From positions 1 through 26,724 of IMG/VR virus record IMGVR_UViG_3300025282_000199: a stretch of 26,724 bases of DNA, one strand, 5' to 3'. The translations under genes were made by a program, and so were the position numbers. Shown piece after piece: positions 8,041 to 14,824 of the stretch (position 1 is the first letter of the stretch; every line of letters starts with the position of its first letter). Under the pieces are notes generated by a model, which made no database searches, was not told where the DNA came from, and saw only the letters and a program-made list of their open reading frames with translations. Origin of the DNA: a virus.

Positions 8041-8203
8041 TCTTTTCTTCCAATCTTTTAATCTTTACCTTCAAAGATTTTATCTTCTTTTTCATCCTCG
8101 TGTTACTCTCCCTAAGAGTCATCACTTCGCTTGTCAAGCACTCTATCGCTTCTAGTGATATCTCTATGGTTTCACGCAAAGATTTTATTGTAGAGTTGCT
8201 CAC
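8012..8203 (-). CDS. Small coiled-coil hypothetical protein
   Basis: This 63-residue protein is predicted to be helical along its whole length. The C-terminal half is a highly charged coiled coil rich in lysine (residues 36-58), ending in an acidic DDD. It begins with a GTG that overlaps the uvsX stop as GTGA, and it overlaps the flap nuclease start by 29 nt. This placement, and the unbroken frame between two sure genes, argue that it is translated. No family recognised. It might be a partner of UvsX or the nuclease, but that rests on position alone. Confidence 0.6.
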   Translation of the reverse strand: MSNSTIKSLRETIEISLEAIECLTSEVMTLRESNTRMKKKIKSLKVKIKRLEEKNDKKKDDDN

Positions 8204-9315
8204 TCTTCTTGGTCGTCTTCTTTGTAAAAATTGCTAGCATCTACAGATCTCTGATCAAACTTAAGAACAACTTCCTCATCAAGGAGTTGCATTATTCTAT
8301 CTTTAAACTTTTGATCTTTCATAAACTCTCCCCACTTAGATGCTTGAAACTTCTGCTCCGTGCCGTCGTCATATCGAAGAGACCACCAGGGGCCCGAATT
8401 ATTTAAATGCTCCGAACTTTGTATCGCTTCGAATAAACTGTCTTCATCTTTAACTCCAACATCCTTTCCCCACATAATTTTAAAATTACATGTCCGGCCG
8501 GCGGTACCAAACCGAGATTTTTCTAATCTCGCCTTAAGTTCGTTGCCAACCCTATATCCCTTGTCATCAAGAATCAAACTACTTTTGCCCTTTCTGCCAG
8601 TTAGCCATATACGCAAACTATAGGCGTACATCATCGATTTTCCGCCTGGACACACATACTTCTCACTATCGGTGGCATATTTAGGATTCGCAACCTGAAG
8701 GTTAGTTTTCAACTGATTAAGAACCAAAAGTGTTGATTGGGAGTTCGCCAAGGACACTATCAATTTAGACATTCCTTTTGCTAAAACTCTCGCCTTTACT
8801 GCCACTGATTCATTTGGGTTAAAAGATCCTTCCACATCGCTAACCGCCGGAGTTAGCGCTAAAGAATCCCACACAAACAACATCCTGTTCTCATTTGAGT
8901 TCAAAAGTTCTTCAATGGTTTCAAGAACAAATTCAACTGATATCGCCTGCAAATATAAAAGTTTTTTTATATCGACGCCGCTTCTCTCAAGGAAAGAAGG
9001 ATCGATAGCAGATTCAGAATCAAAGTAAATAACATCTATTCCCATCTTTTGGGCGTTGGCGGCCGTTTGTGCTGCCATATAGCTCTTACCACTCGATTCC
9101 ATTCCAGCGATCTCTGTTAGTTTCCCGACGGGAATCCCTGCCATTTTTCCTCTGGAAATAATAGCATTTAGCCACGTCGAACCAGTGGGTATCCAATCAA
9201 TAACCTGCGTAGGATTGTCGGAAGACAAATCGTGTGCCACCGTCATTCCCGCCTTCTTATTTATAAGAGACCGCATCGCTGCAATACTTAACTTGCCGCT
9301 CTTTTTGTTCTTCAC
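8200..9315 (-). CDS. uvsX: UvsX/RecA-type recombinase
   Basis: This is a 371-residue strand-exchange protein of the RecA/UvsX family. Walker A is GMESSGKS (residues 71-78), Walker B is in MLFVWDSLAL, and LLVLNQLKTN then CPGGKSMMYAYSLRIWL cover the DNA-binding loop region. It would form filaments on ssDNA for repair and recombination-dependent replication, next to its usual partner gp32. I place the start at the GTG at 9315, 6 bases after a CGGAG ribosome site; the longer frame to 9342 runs into a terminator hairpin. No UvsY mediator is visible nearby. It has no promoter of its own and probably depends on read-through from ssb. Confidence 0.94.
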   Translation of the reverse strand: MKNKKSGKLSIAAMRSLINKKAGMTVAHDLSSDNPTQVIDWIPTGSTWLNAIISRGKMAGIPVGKLTEIAGMESSGKSYMAAQTAANAQKMGIDVIYFDSESAIDPSFLERSGVDIKKLLYLQAISVEFVLETIEELLNSNENRMLFVWDSLALTPAVSDVEGSFNPNESVAVKARVLAKGMSKLIVSLANSQSTLLVLNQLKTNLQVANPKYATDSEKYVCPGGKSMMYAYSLRIWLTGRKGKSSLILDDKGYRVGNELKARLEKSRFGTAGRTCNFKIMWGKDVGVKDEDSLFEAIQSSEHLNNSGPWWSLRYDDGTEQKFQASKWGEFMKDQKFKDRIMQLLDEEVVLKFDQRSVDASNFYKEDDQEE

Positions 9316-9326
9316 AATAAACTCCG

Positions 9327-9360
9327 AAATAAAAAGAGGCACCTGATAACCCTGTGCCTC
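9327..9360 (-). terminator. Intrinsic terminator between ssb and uvsX
   Basis: On the minus strand a 7-bp perfect stem GAGGCAC/GTGCCTC with an 11-base loop is followed by TTTTTATTT. It lies 18 bases after the ssb stop and just before the uvsX ribosome site. Partial termination here would make more ssb than uvsX transcript. Confidence 0.8.
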
Positions 9361-9378: not shown

Positions 9379-10125
9379 TTATCCGCTCATTAATTCATCT
9401 AGGGCGCTATCCACTTTACTCGCTCCTGAGTATTTCTCCACTTCACTGGAGAATTCTTCAGGACTGTCGGCTGCCAAATGCTCATCCAAGTATCCTTGAA
9501 CGTTAGAACTCGTTTTTCTCTCGAAAAGAGAGTCAAACTCTGGCACATTCTCCAGAAATTCTTTGCACTGCTCTTCAGTAATTTTGTCATTGCAAAGATT
9601 GCTAGAGCGCCGCTTGGGGGTAACTTTGGTCACAGGAAATTGACCTCCGGGTGGTTTTCCGTAGTGAATATCCAAGTCAATTCCGGTTTCAATATCCGTT
9701 ATGTCGCCATAATCAGGATTCAAAACAAGATTCAACAAAATCTCATACACCGTTTTGGAAAATCCCCAAACTCGAACACCCAATTCTTCTTCTCCGCGAA
9801 CCAGCACCGGAGAAAAGAACCGCGACTTGACTCCCAGTTGTCTCGCCATCGCTTTGCTTTCTTCATCACCTTCTTGGTACAGTTTCCGAACAAAACCGCA
9901 CACTGGACAATCATCCCCAAAATTTTGCTTGGGGCATAAAAATCCGTTTTCCTTTCCAACACCATAGTGGAAAGAATAACTCTTGAATGGGTCTCCATCC
10001 TCGGCGGGAACAATACGCAATGTTTGTAATCCCTCCGAAGGTTTCCAAAACCCACTCGACCCAGAACCCGCACGGTTCTTGAGGTTATTATATTTCGCTT
10101 TCATTTTCTTCATATCAATAGCCAT
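9379..10125 (-). CDS. ssb: Single-stranded DNA binding protein (T4 gp32-like)
   Basis: This 248-residue protein resembles T4 gp32. A basic N-terminus (MKKMKAKYNNLKNR) stands where gp32 has its cooperativity domain. The zinc site H53, C64, C73, C76 has the gp32-like spacing His...Cys-x8-Cys-x2-Cys. An OB-fold core follows, and the tail is acidic, ending DSALDELMSG, the segment that in gp32 contacts other replication proteins. It coats ssDNA at the fork and works with the helicase, polymerase and UvsX. A consensus promoter and an AAGGAG ribosome site precede it, and a strong terminator follows, fitting a protein needed in large amounts. Confidence 0.93.
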   Translation of the reverse strand: MAIDMKKMKAKYNNLKNRAGSGSSGFWKPSEGLQTLRIVPAEDGDPFKSYSFHYGVGKENGFLCPKQNFGDDCPVCGFVRKLYQEGDEESKAMARQLGVKSRFFSPVLVRGEEELGVRVWGFSKTVYEILLNLVLNPDYGDITDIETGIDLDIHYGKPPGGQFPVTKVTPKRRSSNLCNDKITEEQCKEFLENVPEFDSLFERKTSSNVQGYLDEHLAADSPEEFSSEVEKYSGASKVDSALDELMSG

Positions 10126-10196
10126 ATTATGACTCCTTTTCGTTGTTGATTTGCTTATTATAACAGATCACTTTTGCTCTGTCAAGTGTTTTGTTT
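10121..10196. repeat. 76-bp perfect direct repeat, copy 1 (ssb promoter)
   Basis: The whole 76 bases are identical to 11267-11342. The copy spans the first codons of ssb, its ribosome site and promoter, and the last two bases of the upstream gene's stop codon. Confidence 0.97.
10157..10185 (-). promoter_or_regulatory. Consensus sigma70 promoter of ssb
   Basis: On the minus strand it reads TTGACA, 17 bases, TATAAT with an extended TGT before the -10 box. The spacer ends in AAAGTGATCTGT, a motif with an internal GATC shared with other promoters of this phage. It is one of the two identical promoters in the 76-bp repeats. Confidence 0.88.
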
Positions 10197-11271
10197 ACTC
10201 GTCGTCATCTTCTAGGAATTCCCAGAAAGAGTTGTGGAGGTTCTTGCGGTTGCCTTTACCCCCATTTAAGTTTGGCGCCTTGTACTGCTTCCTGAGTGCC
10301 CCCGAATACTGATTCTCCAGGCACCAAAGAATAAAGTCTTGCATTAGCGGCATCGAGGTGGCGTCTGTCTTCCACCCTGTCGGGAATTGAGACCTAGAAT
10401 CCATCTCTTCCAACAGGAAGGTGATGCCGTCTCTCCCCCTACTCTTCGATGACGGTCCTCTGTCGCTATCTTCTAGCCTTTGTAGCATTTTCTTCACTTT
10501 CTTATCTTCGCATCCATACTTCTTAAACATCTTCACAAAGCTACAAATGATGTTGGCGTTATACACCGCCTTATTCTGAGTCGTAGATATCTCATCTATC
10601 TTCTGAAGCTCTCGAAAAAAAAGTCCCAGTGTCGCTGCTGAGTCTCCTTCGTTTGTATCTGGGTATCCCTGTCCAGCATACTGAAGTATCTTGACGATGT
10701 TGCCTTTCTTAAAGAGTCCAAGCTTGCGAAAATCAACCCCCATGCTTCTACATAATCCGGTAATCTTCTGGGCGGTTTTTTCTACAGAGTCCATGCTGTC
10801 GAATGATCTGTAAAGCTCTTCTGCCGCTTTTTTGCTGTCGCATGGATAAATCGTTGCCGACACTTCAGAGGGCACTTTAACTTTGTTGCACAACTCTATG
10901 GTTTTCTTTTTTTGAAGAACCTCGTGATCGTCAATTCCCGTCATAGTTTCCATTCCCATGCTGATTGCCCAGATATCTCCGCGAGTGTTAGCGTTTATTA
11001 CCTCCCGCACTGTGTCTCCCGTTTCGCTATCCGGATACTCCGCAATTGCGACTTCTTCGTGGGTTGGCATCGGATTGTTAGATAAAAACTTTGCGACGGA
11101 AGCAATTCGAAATGCTGTCTGGCGCTGGATGGGGATTGGTTTCATACCAAGAAACTCCTTAGTCTCTAACTTTAAATGCCGTGGCGTCCCATATCTCATG
11201 GGACCAATGGATGCCACCAATGGGGTGAGATCCGTGGCATATTTGTTAATAGTATTGCTTTTGCTTGCCAT
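10195..11271 (-). CDS. ParB/sulfiredoxin-fold-like protein of unknown role
   Basis: This is a 358-residue protein. Residues 45-105 resemble the ParB/Srx N-terminal fold: PIPIQRQTAFRIASVAKFL, then NPMPTHEEVAIAEY, then REVINANTRGDIW, where family members have a DGNTR-type signature. Here the glycine is replaced (NANTR). Proteins of this group bind DNA or nucleotides or act as nucleases. The C-terminal half has no motif I recognise; it is basic near residues 270-285 and 338-350 and ends in an acidic EDDDE. It carries the same promoter, ribosome site and first two codons as ssb, so the two should be expressed at the same time. A role close to replication is inferred from this, not shown. Confidence 0.7.
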   Translation of the reverse strand: MASKSNTINKYATDLTPLVASIGPMRYGTPRHLKLETKEFLGMKPIPIQRQTAFRIASVAKFLSNNPMPTHEEVAIAEYPDSETGDTVREVINANTRGDIWAISMGMETMTGIDDHEVLQKKKTIELCNKVKVPSEVSATIYPCDSKKAAEELYRSFDSMDSVEKTAQKITGLCRSMGVDFRKLGLFKKGNIVKILQYAGQGYPDTNEGDSAATLGLFFRELQKIDEISTTQNKAVYNANIICSFVKMFKKYGCEDKKVKKMLQRLEDSDRGPSSKSRGRDGITFLLEEMDSRSQFPTGWKTDATSMPLMQDFILWCLENQYSGALRKQYKAPNLNGGKGNRKNLHNSFWEFLEDDDE

Positions 11272-11342
11272 ATTATGACTCCTTTTCGTTGTTGATTTGC
11301 TTATTATAACAGATCACTTTTGCTCTGTCAAGTGTTTTGTTT
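11267..11342. repeat. 76-bp perfect direct repeat, copy 2 (promoter of ParB-like gene)
   Basis: Identical to 10121-10196. The two copies begin 1,146 bases apart and bracket exactly the ParB-like gene. In this copy the -35 region is also coding: it encodes the last residues (HLTEQK and stop) of the upstream small gene. Confidence 0.97.
11303..11331 (-). promoter_or_regulatory. Consensus sigma70 promoter of the ParB-like gene
   Basis: TTGACA, 17 bases, TATAAT on the minus strand, identical to the ssb promoter. The -35 box and part of the spacer lie inside the 3' end of the preceding gene, which stops at 11314. Confidence 0.88.
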
Positions 11343-11598
11343 CGAAATCGTCTTTTTCTTTTCCCTTGAGGATTTCCACCTTGACATCGCCTACGGCAGA
11401 TTGCCAATTGAAGGTGCGAAATCCAGCACTGTCAATATCCCACACCAACTCCAGTCCGGCCGGAAGGGTGCGAGATGAGTTCTCATTTTTAACTTTTGAA
11501 TTTAGAAAATCCTTTGGCAGATCTTCTAACTTAACAAACGTCATATTTCTTGTATCACTATTTTTCTTTTGAAAAGTTCCTGTAAAAACTTTAATCAT
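11314..11598 (-). CDS. Small conserved hypothetical protein
   Basis: This is a 94-residue protein. It opens with IKVFTGTFQKKNSDTRNMTF, a beta-rich segment like small SH3-like phage proteins, and has GLELVWD and GFRTFNW in the second half. I recognise the style from small proteins of aquatic phages (DUF2693-like pattern), but no function is known to me. A clean AAGGAG precedes the ATG, which overlaps the end of the FtsZ-like gene by 8 nt, so the two are co-translated. Its last seven residues are encoded by the 76-bp repeat, so the original C-terminus was probably replaced when the repeat arose. Confidence 0.7.
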   Translation of the reverse strand: MIKVFTGTFQKKNSDTRNMTFVKLEDLPKDFLNSKVKNENSSRTLPAGLELVWDIDSAGFRTFNWQSAVGDVKVEILKGKEKDDFETKHLTEQK

Positions 11599-12433
11599 AA
11601 TTTACTCCTTGAATTATCTTTGTCTGCGAGACAATGTAGATATAGTTCTTTTCATAGTCGGTTGGATATATTCCAAACCCTGCTTTTATGTTCTTATCTT
11701 TCTGCTTCGCTCTCGTCTTAATCTTAGATAGCAAAGTAGTGCTTTCTTCTAACTCCTTTTTGTTGATAGCGAAATAATACCTCTTTTCGTTCGTGTTGTC
11801 AAGAGAAAAATACATCTGATCTGTAATTTTTTCTAACTCGCCGATTCCTATAGTAAAAATACGGCACACCTCAGATTCCTTCGGAAAACTTGAAATGGTC
11901 GGTTTGCTGTTTTTATAAACATTCACCATATGAAACGTCGAAGAGATGATCTCATTAAGAGTGTCATAATATTTGCTAATGGGGATGTTTCCCACTGTTC
12001 TCTGTATCTCTGAATTGGAAACGATATACAATCTTTCAAAAAGACCAGAACGAGCATATTGCTGAAATACGTTAAAAGATATTTTGTCAAGAAGAGTCTC
12101 GTCATCAGTGGCGATAGATTCATCGGGCTTCACATAGAGCACCTCTATTTTGTTTTTGCTTACCGCCTCCAAAATCCTAAGAGAAGCAGATGATACATCA
12201 CCCCCACCTCCAACAACAAACAAAATGTCCCCCTGTATCTTTCTAAGGGAGGATAAAACTCTTGCAGGAAACTTGCTCTCGTATTCTTCTGGAGATGTTC
12301 TTTCGGGCATAGAAAAGCAATTCTTTTGCTTCTTAAGCGACACATCTATCTTATAGACCTCATACTGAGGATATTTGGAAAAACTTTCTGCTATATTGCA
12401 TCCGGCGTTCCCAAGTCCAATTACATTAATCAT
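11591..12433 (-). CDS. Divergent FtsZ/tubulin-like protein
   Basis: The 280-residue protein follows the FtsZ layout from end to end. It starts with INVIGLGNAGCNIAE (residues 2-16), like the FtsZ strand 1 and T1 loop, then YKIDVS at the T2 position. GDILFVVGGGGDVSSA (68-83) sits where FtsZ has GGGTGTG. LYVKPD (99-104) matches the VTKPF strand, and LYIVSNSEI (135-143) the IVIPN strand and its asparagine. The C-terminus KAGFGIYPTDYEKNYIYIVS resembles the FtsZ end domain. The T4 glycine loop is altered and the NxDxxD catalytic T7 motif is missing, so GTP hydrolysis is doubtful. It overlaps the polymerase stop (ATGA) and follows AAGGAG. A role in organising phage DNA or replication sites is inference. 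Confidence 0.7.
   Translation of the reverse strand: MINVIGLGNAGCNIAESFSKYPQYEVYKIDVSLKKQKNCFSMPERTSPEEYESKFPARVLSSLRKIQGDILFVVGGGGDVSSASLRILEAVSKNKIEVLYVKPDESIATDDETLLDKISFNVFQQYARSGLFERLYIVSNSEIQRTVGNIPISKYYDTLNEIISSTFHMVNVYKNSKPTISSFPKESEVCRIFTIGIGELEKITDQMYFSLDNTNEKRYYFAINKKELEESTTLLSKIKTRAKQKDKNIKAGFGIYPTDYEKNYIYIVSQTKIIQGVNYD
11774..11802 (-). promoter_or_regulatory. Possible internal promoter in the FtsZ-like gene
   Basis: The minus strand reads TTGACA, 17 bases, TATTAT inside the FtsZ-like coding sequence, about 175 bases before the small gene at 11598. It lacks the TGATCTG element. It could be chance, because the bases also encode the protein. Confidence 0.3.
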
Positions 12434-13605
12434 ACGTCAATCTCCTTCATAGTGCCAAAATCTTTACCCGCTCTAACATTAACTAAAAAATCTCCAAATT
12501 TGTTCTGGGAAAAAATTTCCTTGATTTCGCATATTAGAGATCGCTCTTCATATACCAAATCCAAAACAAAACTATCGTGGATAAGAAACACAATCTTTGA
12601 CTTCTTTCCTCGTAAGATCTTGTTTATCTTTATAACTTGCTCCAACACCAAATCACTGGTGCTACTCTGGAGGATATAATTCAAAGCGTGTCCTTGGTCG
12701 CACTCTATCTCTCTATTGAACGGCGTGATAATTTTACCTGAATTATAATATTTCTCTAACACCTTCTCCACTTGGTAATAATCTTGCTTCATGTTGGGGT
12801 TATATATCGCCGCAAAGATTTTCTTCTTCGCCTCTTCCCTCGATATGTCACGCTTGAAAATATTCTTTATATTCCATCCATGAATATCCTCTTGCGGTTG
12901 CTTCCGATCTGAAAGGGCGAGAAGCGTCCTCAGTTCGGCCGCATTATAATCAAACTCCACAAAAAGATCGTTATTTGGTTTTAAGATCCTTCGATAAGAG
13001 TGGTTTATGTTCATAATCGGAAAACTATCGCTCGAAACGGTAAGTCTTCCTGTCACCGAACCAAACTGATTATATTTGATTGTATTTTTTCCTCTTATTC
13101 TCTTGATGAAATTCCTAACTGCGGACTGACCCCTCCTGCTATCAAGATAAGAGGAGTCAACATTAAGTTCATTCTCCTCAATCTCACCAAAAAGCTTTTC
13201 CAACTCAAGCATAAAATCATACGATTTCGGCTTCCTATTCTCATTGTAAATCTCCTGAAATATCTCGCACCTCAATTGCGAGTTCTCTCTTAGGAACCAC
13301 CGAGGAATGAGATCATATATGCATACATCATCTATCCTCACTTTGCTGTTAGCGATAGCGTTGCCAAATGCTTTCTTTTTCGATTGAGAAAACTCCCACT
13401 CTCTCTGCAAGTGAGGTGGACAAAAAGCAGAAAGAGGTTTCCCTCCACAATATAAACTAAGATACTGAGCGCCTTCTTGATGATGATGGTGCTTGTAGTC
13501 CCAAGTTATATAGTGTTTGCTGGTGTCTGGTTTCTGCTCGTGAATATCACCGTCATAATAATATCCTAAGCACTCTTGTTTTGAATCGAGGATTGTATAA
13601 AACAA
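12430..13605 (-). CDS. polA: Family A DNA polymerase, polymerase domain only
   Basis: The 391-residue protein carries the family A polymerase core: TGRLT (185-189) and MNIN after it, motif A FDYNAAELR (218-226, catalytic D219), a motif B region EEAKKKIFAAIYN (257-269), the HALNYILQSSTSDL segment (306-319) and motif C LIHDS (341-345, catalytic D344). The first 150 residues do not look like a 3'-5' exonuclease, and the 5' nuclease is a separate gene (7066-8040). Motif C has HDS where most family members have HDE. The frame begins with a TTG at 13605 after GAGGG, 7 nt behind the upstream stop; I see no better start. It would extend DNA, either as the main polymerase or as an accessory to the DnaE-type enzyme. 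Confidence 0.9.
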   Translation of the reverse strand: MFYTILDSKQECLGYYYDGDIHEQKPDTSKHYITWDYKHHHHQEGAQYLSLYCGGKPLSAFCPPHLQREWEFSQSKKKAFGNAIANSKVRIDDVCIYDLIPRWFLRENSQLRCEIFQEIYNENRKPKSYDFMLELEKLFGEIEENELNVDSSYLDSRRGQSAVRNFIKRIRGKNTIKYNQFGSVTGRLTVSSDSFPIMNINHSYRRILKPNNDLFVEFDYNAAELRTLLALSDRKQPQEDIHGWNIKNIFKRDISREEAKKKIFAAIYNPNMKQDYYQVEKVLEKYYNSGKIITPFNREIECDQGHALNYILQSSTSDLVLEQVIKINKILRGKKSKIVFLIHDSFVLDLVYEERSLICEIKEIFSQNKFGDFLVNVRAGKDFGTMKEIDV

Positions 13606-13612
13606 TCTACCC

Positions 13613-14824
13613 TCACTTTCTTTGAAATCTAAAATTCCCTCTACGATATTTCTTTATCACTTCGTCTTCTCCCCATGGTCTCCTCACTTCTTTGTTGATG
13701 AATTTGAATGCAGCGTCTTCATTAGCATGTTCAAGAAATTGAGCGGCTTTTGCTGAAACCTGATCAAATTTATACTGGTTCCAGTCGCGATTGGTTTCTT
13801 TCGCTCGTATATAAATGCATAACCGCAACCAGAAAGAATCATCAGATCTCCACTCTTCTTCATACTGCTCCTCCGACATAATATCACGCTTAATAACCTT
13901 TGTCAAGCTTGTTTTTCTACCTTCTTCTCCGAAAAGAGGGACGCGCACAGATGGTATCTGCCCCACAAACATATTGTAGAACTCTTTCAAATAGAATTTC
14001 AAGTCCGAAACATCAATAAAGCAAGAAAGTTTATAAAATTTCTCTGTCAACGTCTCTTTCCCTACATCATACTTCTGCATTAGATCTGTCATCTGGCTAG
14101 AGTATGTAATGGCGACCAATCTCCACGGCGCATTCTTGTCAAGCGCAAATCCCTGGTTGGCGGCCAATTGGCGATAAGTCTCAAACTGTATATCGTTTAT
14201 ATATGTTGCTATCTTATTCAGATCCTCCCCCTGGTCGCTGGTGTCATCAATCTCAATTACCAGTCCACTATATAGAGGAGTAGATAAATTACTCAGCAAA
14301 TATTCTGACATCGTATACGGCTGAAGGAGTGTAACTCTGTCAATAAGAATTGTGAATTGTTCTATAAAATCAGGAAAATCTAAGATTTTCCCGTTTATCT
14401 TTCTAGATGACATAAAAGGAAAAATAAGACCTTCATACATCTTTCGAACATATGAAAAATAATCTTCCCGTGGGGATCTCCACCCCCTTTTTGGCTCCAA
14501 CAGACGAGACACCAACCCAGTGGAAGAGATCGCTCCAACCCTGATAAGTTCTTTCGCGTCACTCTGTATACTGCTAAATGCATCGGCGACGAAGTTAAGC
14601 GCAAACACCTCACCCTCTCCCAAAACTCTATTCATTAACACCGACCCCGACGCAGGATAAATAGCGTCTTGATTATTATCAATCCTGCCGTATGAAATGT
14701 GTTCATACCAATAATTTACGAAACTATGATTAGATAACCCAGTAGAATAATTTTCAATATACTTAGTTCTTTCCGTGAATGATGGGCGAGCAGGAAGAGA
14801 ATTTGATCCGAAACTATATTTCAT
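13613..14824 (-). CDS. Probable virion-associated protein, function unknown
   Basis: This is a 403-residue protein with no motif I can name. It is soluble-looking with no signal peptide or membrane segment. It begins KYSFGSNSLPARPSF and has a WRSPREDYFSYVRKMYEG block near residue 120. It follows the 972-residue virion gene by 9 nt with an AGGGAG ribosome site, so it is the last gene of the tail operon and is most likely a tail or baseplate component (inferred from position). A sigma70-like promoter lies inside its coding region and probably serves the polymerase gene downstream. Confidence 0.75.
   Translation of the reverse strand: MKYSFGSNSLPARPSFTERTKYIENYSTGLSNHSFVNYWYEHISYGRIDNNQDAIYPASGSVLMNRVLGEGEVFALNFVADAFSSIQSDAKELIRVGAISSTGLVSRLLEPKRGWRSPREDYFSYVRKMYEGLIFPFMSSRKINGKILDFPDFIEQFTILIDRVTLLQPYTMSEYLLSNLSTPLYSGLVIEIDDTSDQGEDLNKIATYINDIQFETYRQLAANQGFALDKNAPWRLVAITYSSQMTDLMQKYDVGKETLTEKFYKLSCFIDVSDLKFYLKEFYNMFVGQIPSVRVPLFGEEGRKTSLTKVIKRDIMSEEQYEEEWRSDDSFWLRLCIYIRAKETNRDWNQYKFDQVSAKAAQFLEHANEDAAFKFINKEVRRPWGEDEVIKKYRRGNFRFQRK
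13878..13906 (-). promoter_or_regulatory. Internal sigma70-type promoter upstream of the polymerase gene
   Basis: Within the coding region of the upstream virion gene the minus strand reads TTGACA, 17 bases, TATTAT with an extended TGA before the -10 box. The -35 box is preceded by AGC, as in the promoters at 673 and 3734. It would start transcription about 265 bases before the polymerase and give the replication genes a start independent of the tail operon. Confidence 0.5.

Follow-up and report, generated by a model that had tools for sequence, protein, structure and literature searches.

The window analysed here is the whole 26,724-nucleotide stretch of DNA from the IMG/VR virus record IMGVR_UViG_3300025282_000199 (positions 1 to 26,724). 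It carries at 11591-12433, on the minus strand, a gene for a 280-residue protein, P0001, which lies in a cluster of replication genes and, according to structure prediction, almost certainly has the tubulin/FtsZ fold along its whole length. The bounds of the open reading frame are exact, and the same interval on the plus strand contains in-frame stops and is not open. A preliminary description made from the DNA letters had proposed a degenerate FtsZ/tubulin-like protein at this place, and the motif positions given there (GLGNAGCN at residues 6-13, GGGG at 75-78, VKPD at 101-104 and SN at 139-140) are correct in the 280-residue translation. The gene and the parts of its product are listed below, with conservation counted over 133 distinct family members.

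11591-12433, minus strand: tubulin/FtsZ-fold protein P0001, 280 amino acids (open reading frame, confident AlphaFold2 model and fold matches)
12395-12418, minus strand: T1 loop GLGNAGCN, residues 6-13, between S1 and H1 of the model
12185-12211, minus strand: altered T4 loop GGGGDVSSA, residues 75-83 (GGGG at 75-78; G76 127/133, G78 126/133)
12122-12133, minus strand: S5-T5 segment VKPD, residues 101-104 (P103 129/133, D/E104 127/133)
12038-12076, minus strand: family signature FNVFQQYARSGLF, residues 120-132, at the end of helix H4, which spans 110-129 in the model
12014-12019, minus strand: T6 loop SN, residues 139-140 (N140 132/133), aligning with the T6 DN of a second, canonical phage tubulin family
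11912-11980, minus strand: central helix H7, residues 152-174, present in both of the models described below
11864-11911, minus strand: loop replacing the T7 loop and helix H8, residues 175-190 (16 residues long in 133/133)
11609-11863, minus strand: C-terminal activation-type domain, residues 191-275 (S7, S8, H10, S9 and S10, from the secondary structure of the model)

The AlphaFold2 model of the protein, built with 21 relatives from IMG/VR, reached a predicted local distance difference test (pLDDT) score of 92.6 and a predicted template modelling (pTM) score of 0.91. Its elements follow the order of those of FtsZ, namely S1-T1-H1, S4-T4-H3, S5-T5-H4, S6-T6, H7 and the C-terminal domain, so that the N-terminal guanosine triphosphate (GTP)-binding domain, the central H7 and the C-terminal activation domain of the tubulin/FtsZ superfamily are all found, in a match that covers the whole length. 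All top Foldseek matches were FtsZ (best E-value 3.6e-13; 377 matches below 1e-3), and VIA-align gave Z scores of 24.4 against CetZ (256 residues, 3.0 Å), 23.1 against Aquifex FtsZ (270 residues) and 22.7 against Bacillus TubZ (275 residues). A distant member of the family (L141, about 28% identity), modelled from a 37-sequence alignment, showed the same fold with a pLDDT of 90.7 and had CetZ (Z 23.0) and TubZ (Z 22.6) as its best structural matches; the two models are not wholly independent, as some sequences are common to both alignments and the training of AlphaFold2 included known FtsZ structures. The structure prediction recommended in the preliminary description hence bore out the FtsZ pattern that it had traced along the whole chain, whereas the opposite outcome that it had named, matches to a plain Rossmann dehydrogenase, did not appear, all listed matches being FtsZ, CetZ, TubZ or tubulin. 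In the C-terminal domain, R191 is conserved in 125/133 members and Q275 is invariant in alignment A2, while H9 is missing from the model. The C-terminal helix H11 and tail, which are filament parts of PhuZ and TubZ, are not present either: in the model the chain ends about nine residues past S10 (264-271), with no helix.

Two elements on which tubulins and FtsZ usually depend are changed throughout the family. The T4 loop, already noticed as divergent in the preliminary description, follows the pattern GxG[K/D/S/N][VI][SA], with its GxG core kept and mostly Lys at the next position, and the signature GGGTG(S/T)G occurs in 0 of the 133 members; the NxDxxD catalytic motif, also reported there as absent, is likewise found in 0/133. 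The model contains no helix between residues 174 and 192, where H8 would stand, and the L141 model has no H8 either. The T7 loop and H8 normally reach into the pocket of the neighbouring subunit, where they trigger hydrolysis and build the protofilament contact. Crystal structures of the phiKZ TubZ place T7, the base of H8 and S9 in the same space in TubZ, tubulin and FtsZ protofilaments (PMC3678025). As T7 and H8 are missing, the canonical subunit contact is impossible in the usual way. The word "degenerate" has to be abandoned: the altered T4 loop and the missing T7-H8 are uniform in 133/133 members of a gene under purifying selection, and are conserved features of the family.

The nucleotide pocket, for its part, is largely kept. 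In the T1 loop, G8 is present in 133/133 members, A10 in 131/133, and G6 and G11 in 129/133 each. N140 stands right behind S6 and is the counterpart of the T6 asparagine of tubulin and FtsZ; in H7, N160 (132/133) is preceded by Y155 (114/133) and Y156. In tubulin the corresponding base contacts are made by N206 and N228, with Y224, and Y155/Y156 and N160 of H7 are presumed to be guanine contacts. N140 and N160 are 20 residues apart; their counterparts in E. coli FtsZ, N165 and N186/D187, are separated by 21-22. A profile alignment with the canonical phage tubulin family brought T1, T4, T6 and the H7 asparagine into register, with a weak score (P 0.017). Since T1 is retained together with the two asparagines presumed to contact the base, the standard pocket probably holds a guanine nucleotide.

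Outside the pocket, the most invariant stretch is FNVFQQYARSGLF, whose core QxYARS is the strongest signature of the family, with Q124 and R128 in 133/133 members and S129 in 132/133. By topology, this end of H4 appears to point to the side that lacks T7-H8 and not to the nucleotide. The QxYARS surface of helix 4 may therefore be a working surface, either for a partner or for self-contact.

The family is large and its gene is held in a fixed place. A first scan of IMG/VR with a single protein as query gave 27 loci, and a second with an alignment as query gave at least 582 matching stretches. In a set of 61 loci gathered by the polymerase alone in order to avoid bias, the family lies directly downstream of the polymerase in 57/61, that is in 57/57 testable loci, the remaining four contigs stopping at or just past the polymerase gene. 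Among loci anchored on the family itself, the polymerase lies upstream in 82/83 and a single-strand DNA-binding protein (SSB) downstream in 81/82; the sole locus without the polymerase in this position (L045) has extra small genes intervening. For the nearest pair of members, the nonsynonymous divergence (dN) is 0.063 and the synonymous divergence (dS) 0.99 (dN/dS about 0.06). The tubulin-like gene is thus not decaying; it belongs to the conserved core, and purifying selection on it is strong. The motif pattern goes beyond chance: 133 distinct relatives share it, the nearest pair shows this dN/dS contrast, and one fold is found in two members with about 28% identity. The carriers are a large group of uncultured bacterial viruses: five queries spread across the family found no relatives among the 50,697 phage records of INPHARED, and a single scan across 84,980 genomes of bacteria and archaea, made with short degenerate patterns and so not exhaustive, found no cellular relatives.

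The neighbouring genes in the window are the following.

12430-13605, minus strand: compact family A DNA polymerase, 391 amino acids, upstream neighbour (PF00476, 3.1e-13), overlapping the tubulin-like gene by 4 bases
11314-11598, minus strand: 94-residue downstream gene of unknown function (phrog_1086), overlapping the stop of the tubulin-like gene by 8 bases
10195-11271, minus strand: 358-residue gene of unknown function (phrog_2615, PHROG match 1.7e-20)
9379-10125, minus strand: SSB, gp32-type (phrog_1192, 3.3e-22)
8200-9342, minus strand: RecA/UvsX recombinase (PF00154, 1.1e-33; phrog_97, 2.8e-52)

The overlaps of 4 and 8 bases place the tubulin-like gene inside a tightly packed block transcribed in one direction, in which the 94-residue gene, the 358-residue gene, SSB, RecA/UvsX, a 5'-3' exonuclease, a DnaB-type helicase and ribonucleotide reductase follow one another downstream on the minus strand. 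The location between a DNA polymerase and SSB, as originally proposed, is upheld by the PF00476 and phrog_1192 matches, with the 94- and 358-residue genes separating the tubulin-like gene from SSB in this window; the 358-residue gene does not occupy this place in most related loci. On the other side lie T4-type tail genes, namely baseplate wedge, hub and tail sheath. The attribution to a T4-type phage consequently stands for the tail genes and fails for the replication module, which is PolA-type; the phage combines the two. No exonuclease domain was recognised in the 391-residue polymerase, whose closest matches in cultured phages are less than 30% identical, and no family B polymerase was found among 10 long related records.

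Several further genes were seen in the window and in related loci. Upstream of the polymerase, a 403-residue gene (13613-14824, minus strand) is kept in dozens of related loci; Pfam, PHROGs and NCBIfam all left it unmatched. About 28 loci, L072 (7513-7824) being one, have a gene of about 103 residues beginning KKYNKLVRDKIPEII between the polymerase and the tubulin-like gene, and it is a frequent insertion immediately ahead of the latter; without a match in Pfam or NCBIfam, it is presumably a look-alike of MazG-like nucleoside triphosphate pyrophosphatases. In a single contig (L051, 779-1954) this gene is fused in frame to the tubulin-like gene through a short deletion that removes the stop and the start; this may be an assembly artefact and was not used as evidence. 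At 735-1394 of the window, on the minus strand, lies a gene for an S-adenosylmethionine lyase family protein (PF23780, 6e-10); enzymes of this kind are deployed by some phages against restriction.

Ordinary sequence methods detect the tubulin relation weakly. The protein had no significant match in Pfam, PHROGs, NCBIfam or PDB sequence searches; it scored 13.6 bits against TIGR00065 (FtsZ), whose cut-off is 295, and was left unmatched by PF00091, which few members match, and then weakly. It did not match phrog_4733 (tubulin PhuZ), whereas the phiKZ PhuZ scores 4.6e-118, which agrees with the separation from PhuZ anticipated in the preliminary description. PhuZ- and FtsZ-based scans of viral contigs returned no relatives of the family. 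The phiKZ chimallin had no match in the 10 long records, in a search that had no positive control and is uninformative. By fold, the protein is a member of the tubulin superfamily; by the motifs that define those families, it is not FtsZ, PhuZ or TubZ.

It shares with FtsZ and CetZ the whole-chain fold, T1, the T6 asparagine, H7 and the C-terminal domain, and differs from them by its length of 280 residues, a T4 loop that is not GGGTG(S/T)G, the lack of NxDxxD, H8 and H9, and a relation that ordinary sequence searches miss. With PhuZ (phiKZ TubZ) of nucleus-forming jumbo phages and the TubZ of plasmids and phages it has the phage tubulin fold in common; unlike these, it lacks T7-H8 and the C-terminal H11 and tail, is encoded in a replication operon and has no PHROG PhuZ match. 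It was the GGGTG(S/T)G loop that led to the discovery of FtsZl1 and FtsZl2 (Makarova and Koonin 2010; PMC2875224), and since that loop is found in none of the 133 members, the present family would escape such a search. Both are highly diverged FtsZ-like families, as this one is, and FtsZl1 also has no recognisable T6-T7 region; a coiled coil and a C-terminal domain made of helices are described for it (PMC2875224), whereas our protein has a clear T6 and H7. The best viral structural matches in BFVD, the FtsZ-like A0A6J5RW92 (452 residues, E-value 1.5e-12) and A0A8S5UFG9 (387 residues, 5.7e-9), are much longer, 10-13% identical and belong to a separate family. No description of the tubulin-like family was found in the open-access literature on phage tubulins and FtsZ-like families (as distinct from subscription papers and preprints), within which the family is so far undescribed.

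A second phage tubulin family, of canonical type (P0004, alignment A4), was met in the same virus group, for example at 1027-2121 on the minus strand of L251 (record IMGVR_UViG_3300025131_009739, 364 residues). It matches FtsZ by sequence, has at least 107 matches in IMG/VR and none in INPHARED. Its T1, T6 and H7 align with those of the small family; unlike the small protein, its 364 residues retain the T4 loop GGGGGTGS and a DxxD-type T7, QTFDSKDLER, with both Asp invariant. The two families share some records: among 15 long records with the small family, four have the canonical tubulin, two of which had been picked for carrying it, and the small family occurs in 5/15 long records of the canonical one. 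Co-occurrence in a minority of records indicates that the small protein does not depend on the canonical tubulin.

What the protein does may be framed around three options offered in the preliminary description, a nucleotide-binding scaffold, a host FtsZ inhibitor by mimicry or a new filament family, among which the scaffold is the best fit. A scaffold or switch of the phage replisome that carries GTP as its ligand and hydrolyses it poorly is favoured jointly by the core status of the gene, its fixed position after the polymerase and before SSB, the retention of the pocket and the loss of the activation loop. This reading comes close to being probable; a replication-scaffold role as such, drawn from gene context and conservation alone, is put forward tentatively. 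The protein would be produced together with the DNA polymerase and SSB, would bind a guanine nucleotide in the standard pocket and, without T7-H8, would not go through the normal cycle of GTP-driven assembly; it may then hold or localise replication proteins and DNA, its helix-4 surface binding a partner or its own kind. In its fullest form, with a fixed replisome part that binds GTP without T7-H8, has QxYARS as its contact with the polymerase, with DNA or with its own kind (R128 perhaps acting on the nucleotide of a neighbour) and is sometimes paired with the canonical, catalytic tubulin, the proposal is rather unlikely to hold in every part. Several points weigh against the scaffold or switch. 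The case for nucleotide binding is built on the position of motifs, and one phosphate-binding element, the T4 loop, is altered. Gene context is no proof of a role in replication. Homology to FtsZ rests on structure and motif register, because an hhalign comparison with an Enterobacterales FtsZ profile did no better than column-shuffled controls. Finally, 55/133 members have an acidic residue at both 185 and 188, at a spacing like that of NxDxxD; a shifted catalytic site could thus exist in part of the family, where hydrolysis may not have been lost.

The same acidic pair, at an NxDxxD-like spacing in many members, is part of the case for a filament-forming phage tubulin that positions DNA as PhuZ and TubZ do, in which the T7-H8 contact would have passed to the motif of helix 4 or to the short acidic loop. 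The full fold is kept, and the canonical tubulin of some of these phages shows that tubulin cytoskeletons occur in the group; given the lack of any PhuZ family match, we consider such a filament unlikely. Mimicry of host FtsZ draws on the tubulin fold and intact top-side loops combined with the loss of precisely the opposite longitudinal face: the nucleotide face would cap or poison host filaments, and the face missing T7-H8 would block further addition. Phage inhibitors of FtsZ are a known class, including Kil, Gp0.4, Icd and the T5 Hdi (PMC3961180, PMC4944311, PMC11897509, PMC10714956), yet these are not described there as FtsZ-fold mimics. A host-takeover gene would not usually be part of a near-universal core, nor stay fixed between polymerase and SSB among members that share about 28% identity, and the most invariant patch, QxYARS, appears by topology to lie off the nucleotide side, which leaves mimicry improbable.

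The invariant pairing with the compact family A polymerase would also suit an accessory factor, for example in processivity or proofreading, in which the fold is reused with little or no role for a nucleotide. In line with this, the 10 long records had no above-cut-off match to the T4 sliding-clamp N-domain (PF02916) or to the PolA-type 3'-5' exonuclease (PF01612), although the clamp search had no strong positive control and the records are fragments. The conserved base-contacting asparagines would be needless in such a factor, which we regard as distinctly improbable. Weak Pfam matches of the first part of the protein to Sacchrp_dh_NADP (22/45 members, best 1.2e-4) and TrkA_N (22/45, best 1.5e-3) pointed to a plain Rossmann enzyme or sensor that binds NAD(P). 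The N-terminal domain of tubulin is itself Rossmann-like, however, and the model carries H7 and a C-terminal domain, with listed structural matches that all belong to the tubulin superfamily, so that this alternative is hardly tenable. A Rossmann dehydrogenase in the strict sense was rejected, as the layout of a Rossmann domain plus a dehydrogenase catalytic domain was not found.

The phage tubulins known so far, PhuZ and TubZ, form dynamic filaments that rely on the T7 loop, and they count as accessory equipment of particular phages. The family described here is a new type within the tubulin superfamily, with a known fold and a motif set unlike those of FtsZ, PhuZ and TubZ, and is set apart from FtsZl1 and FtsZl2 by their published description. 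A large group of uncultured phages thus retains, beside its polymerase, a core tubulin-fold gene without the T7 machinery, and a gene left blank by current libraries gains a name and a testable role. If GTP is bound, the tubulin fold would be shown capable of acting in DNA replication as a switch or scaffold that does not cycle, and the superfamily would extend further than has been known.
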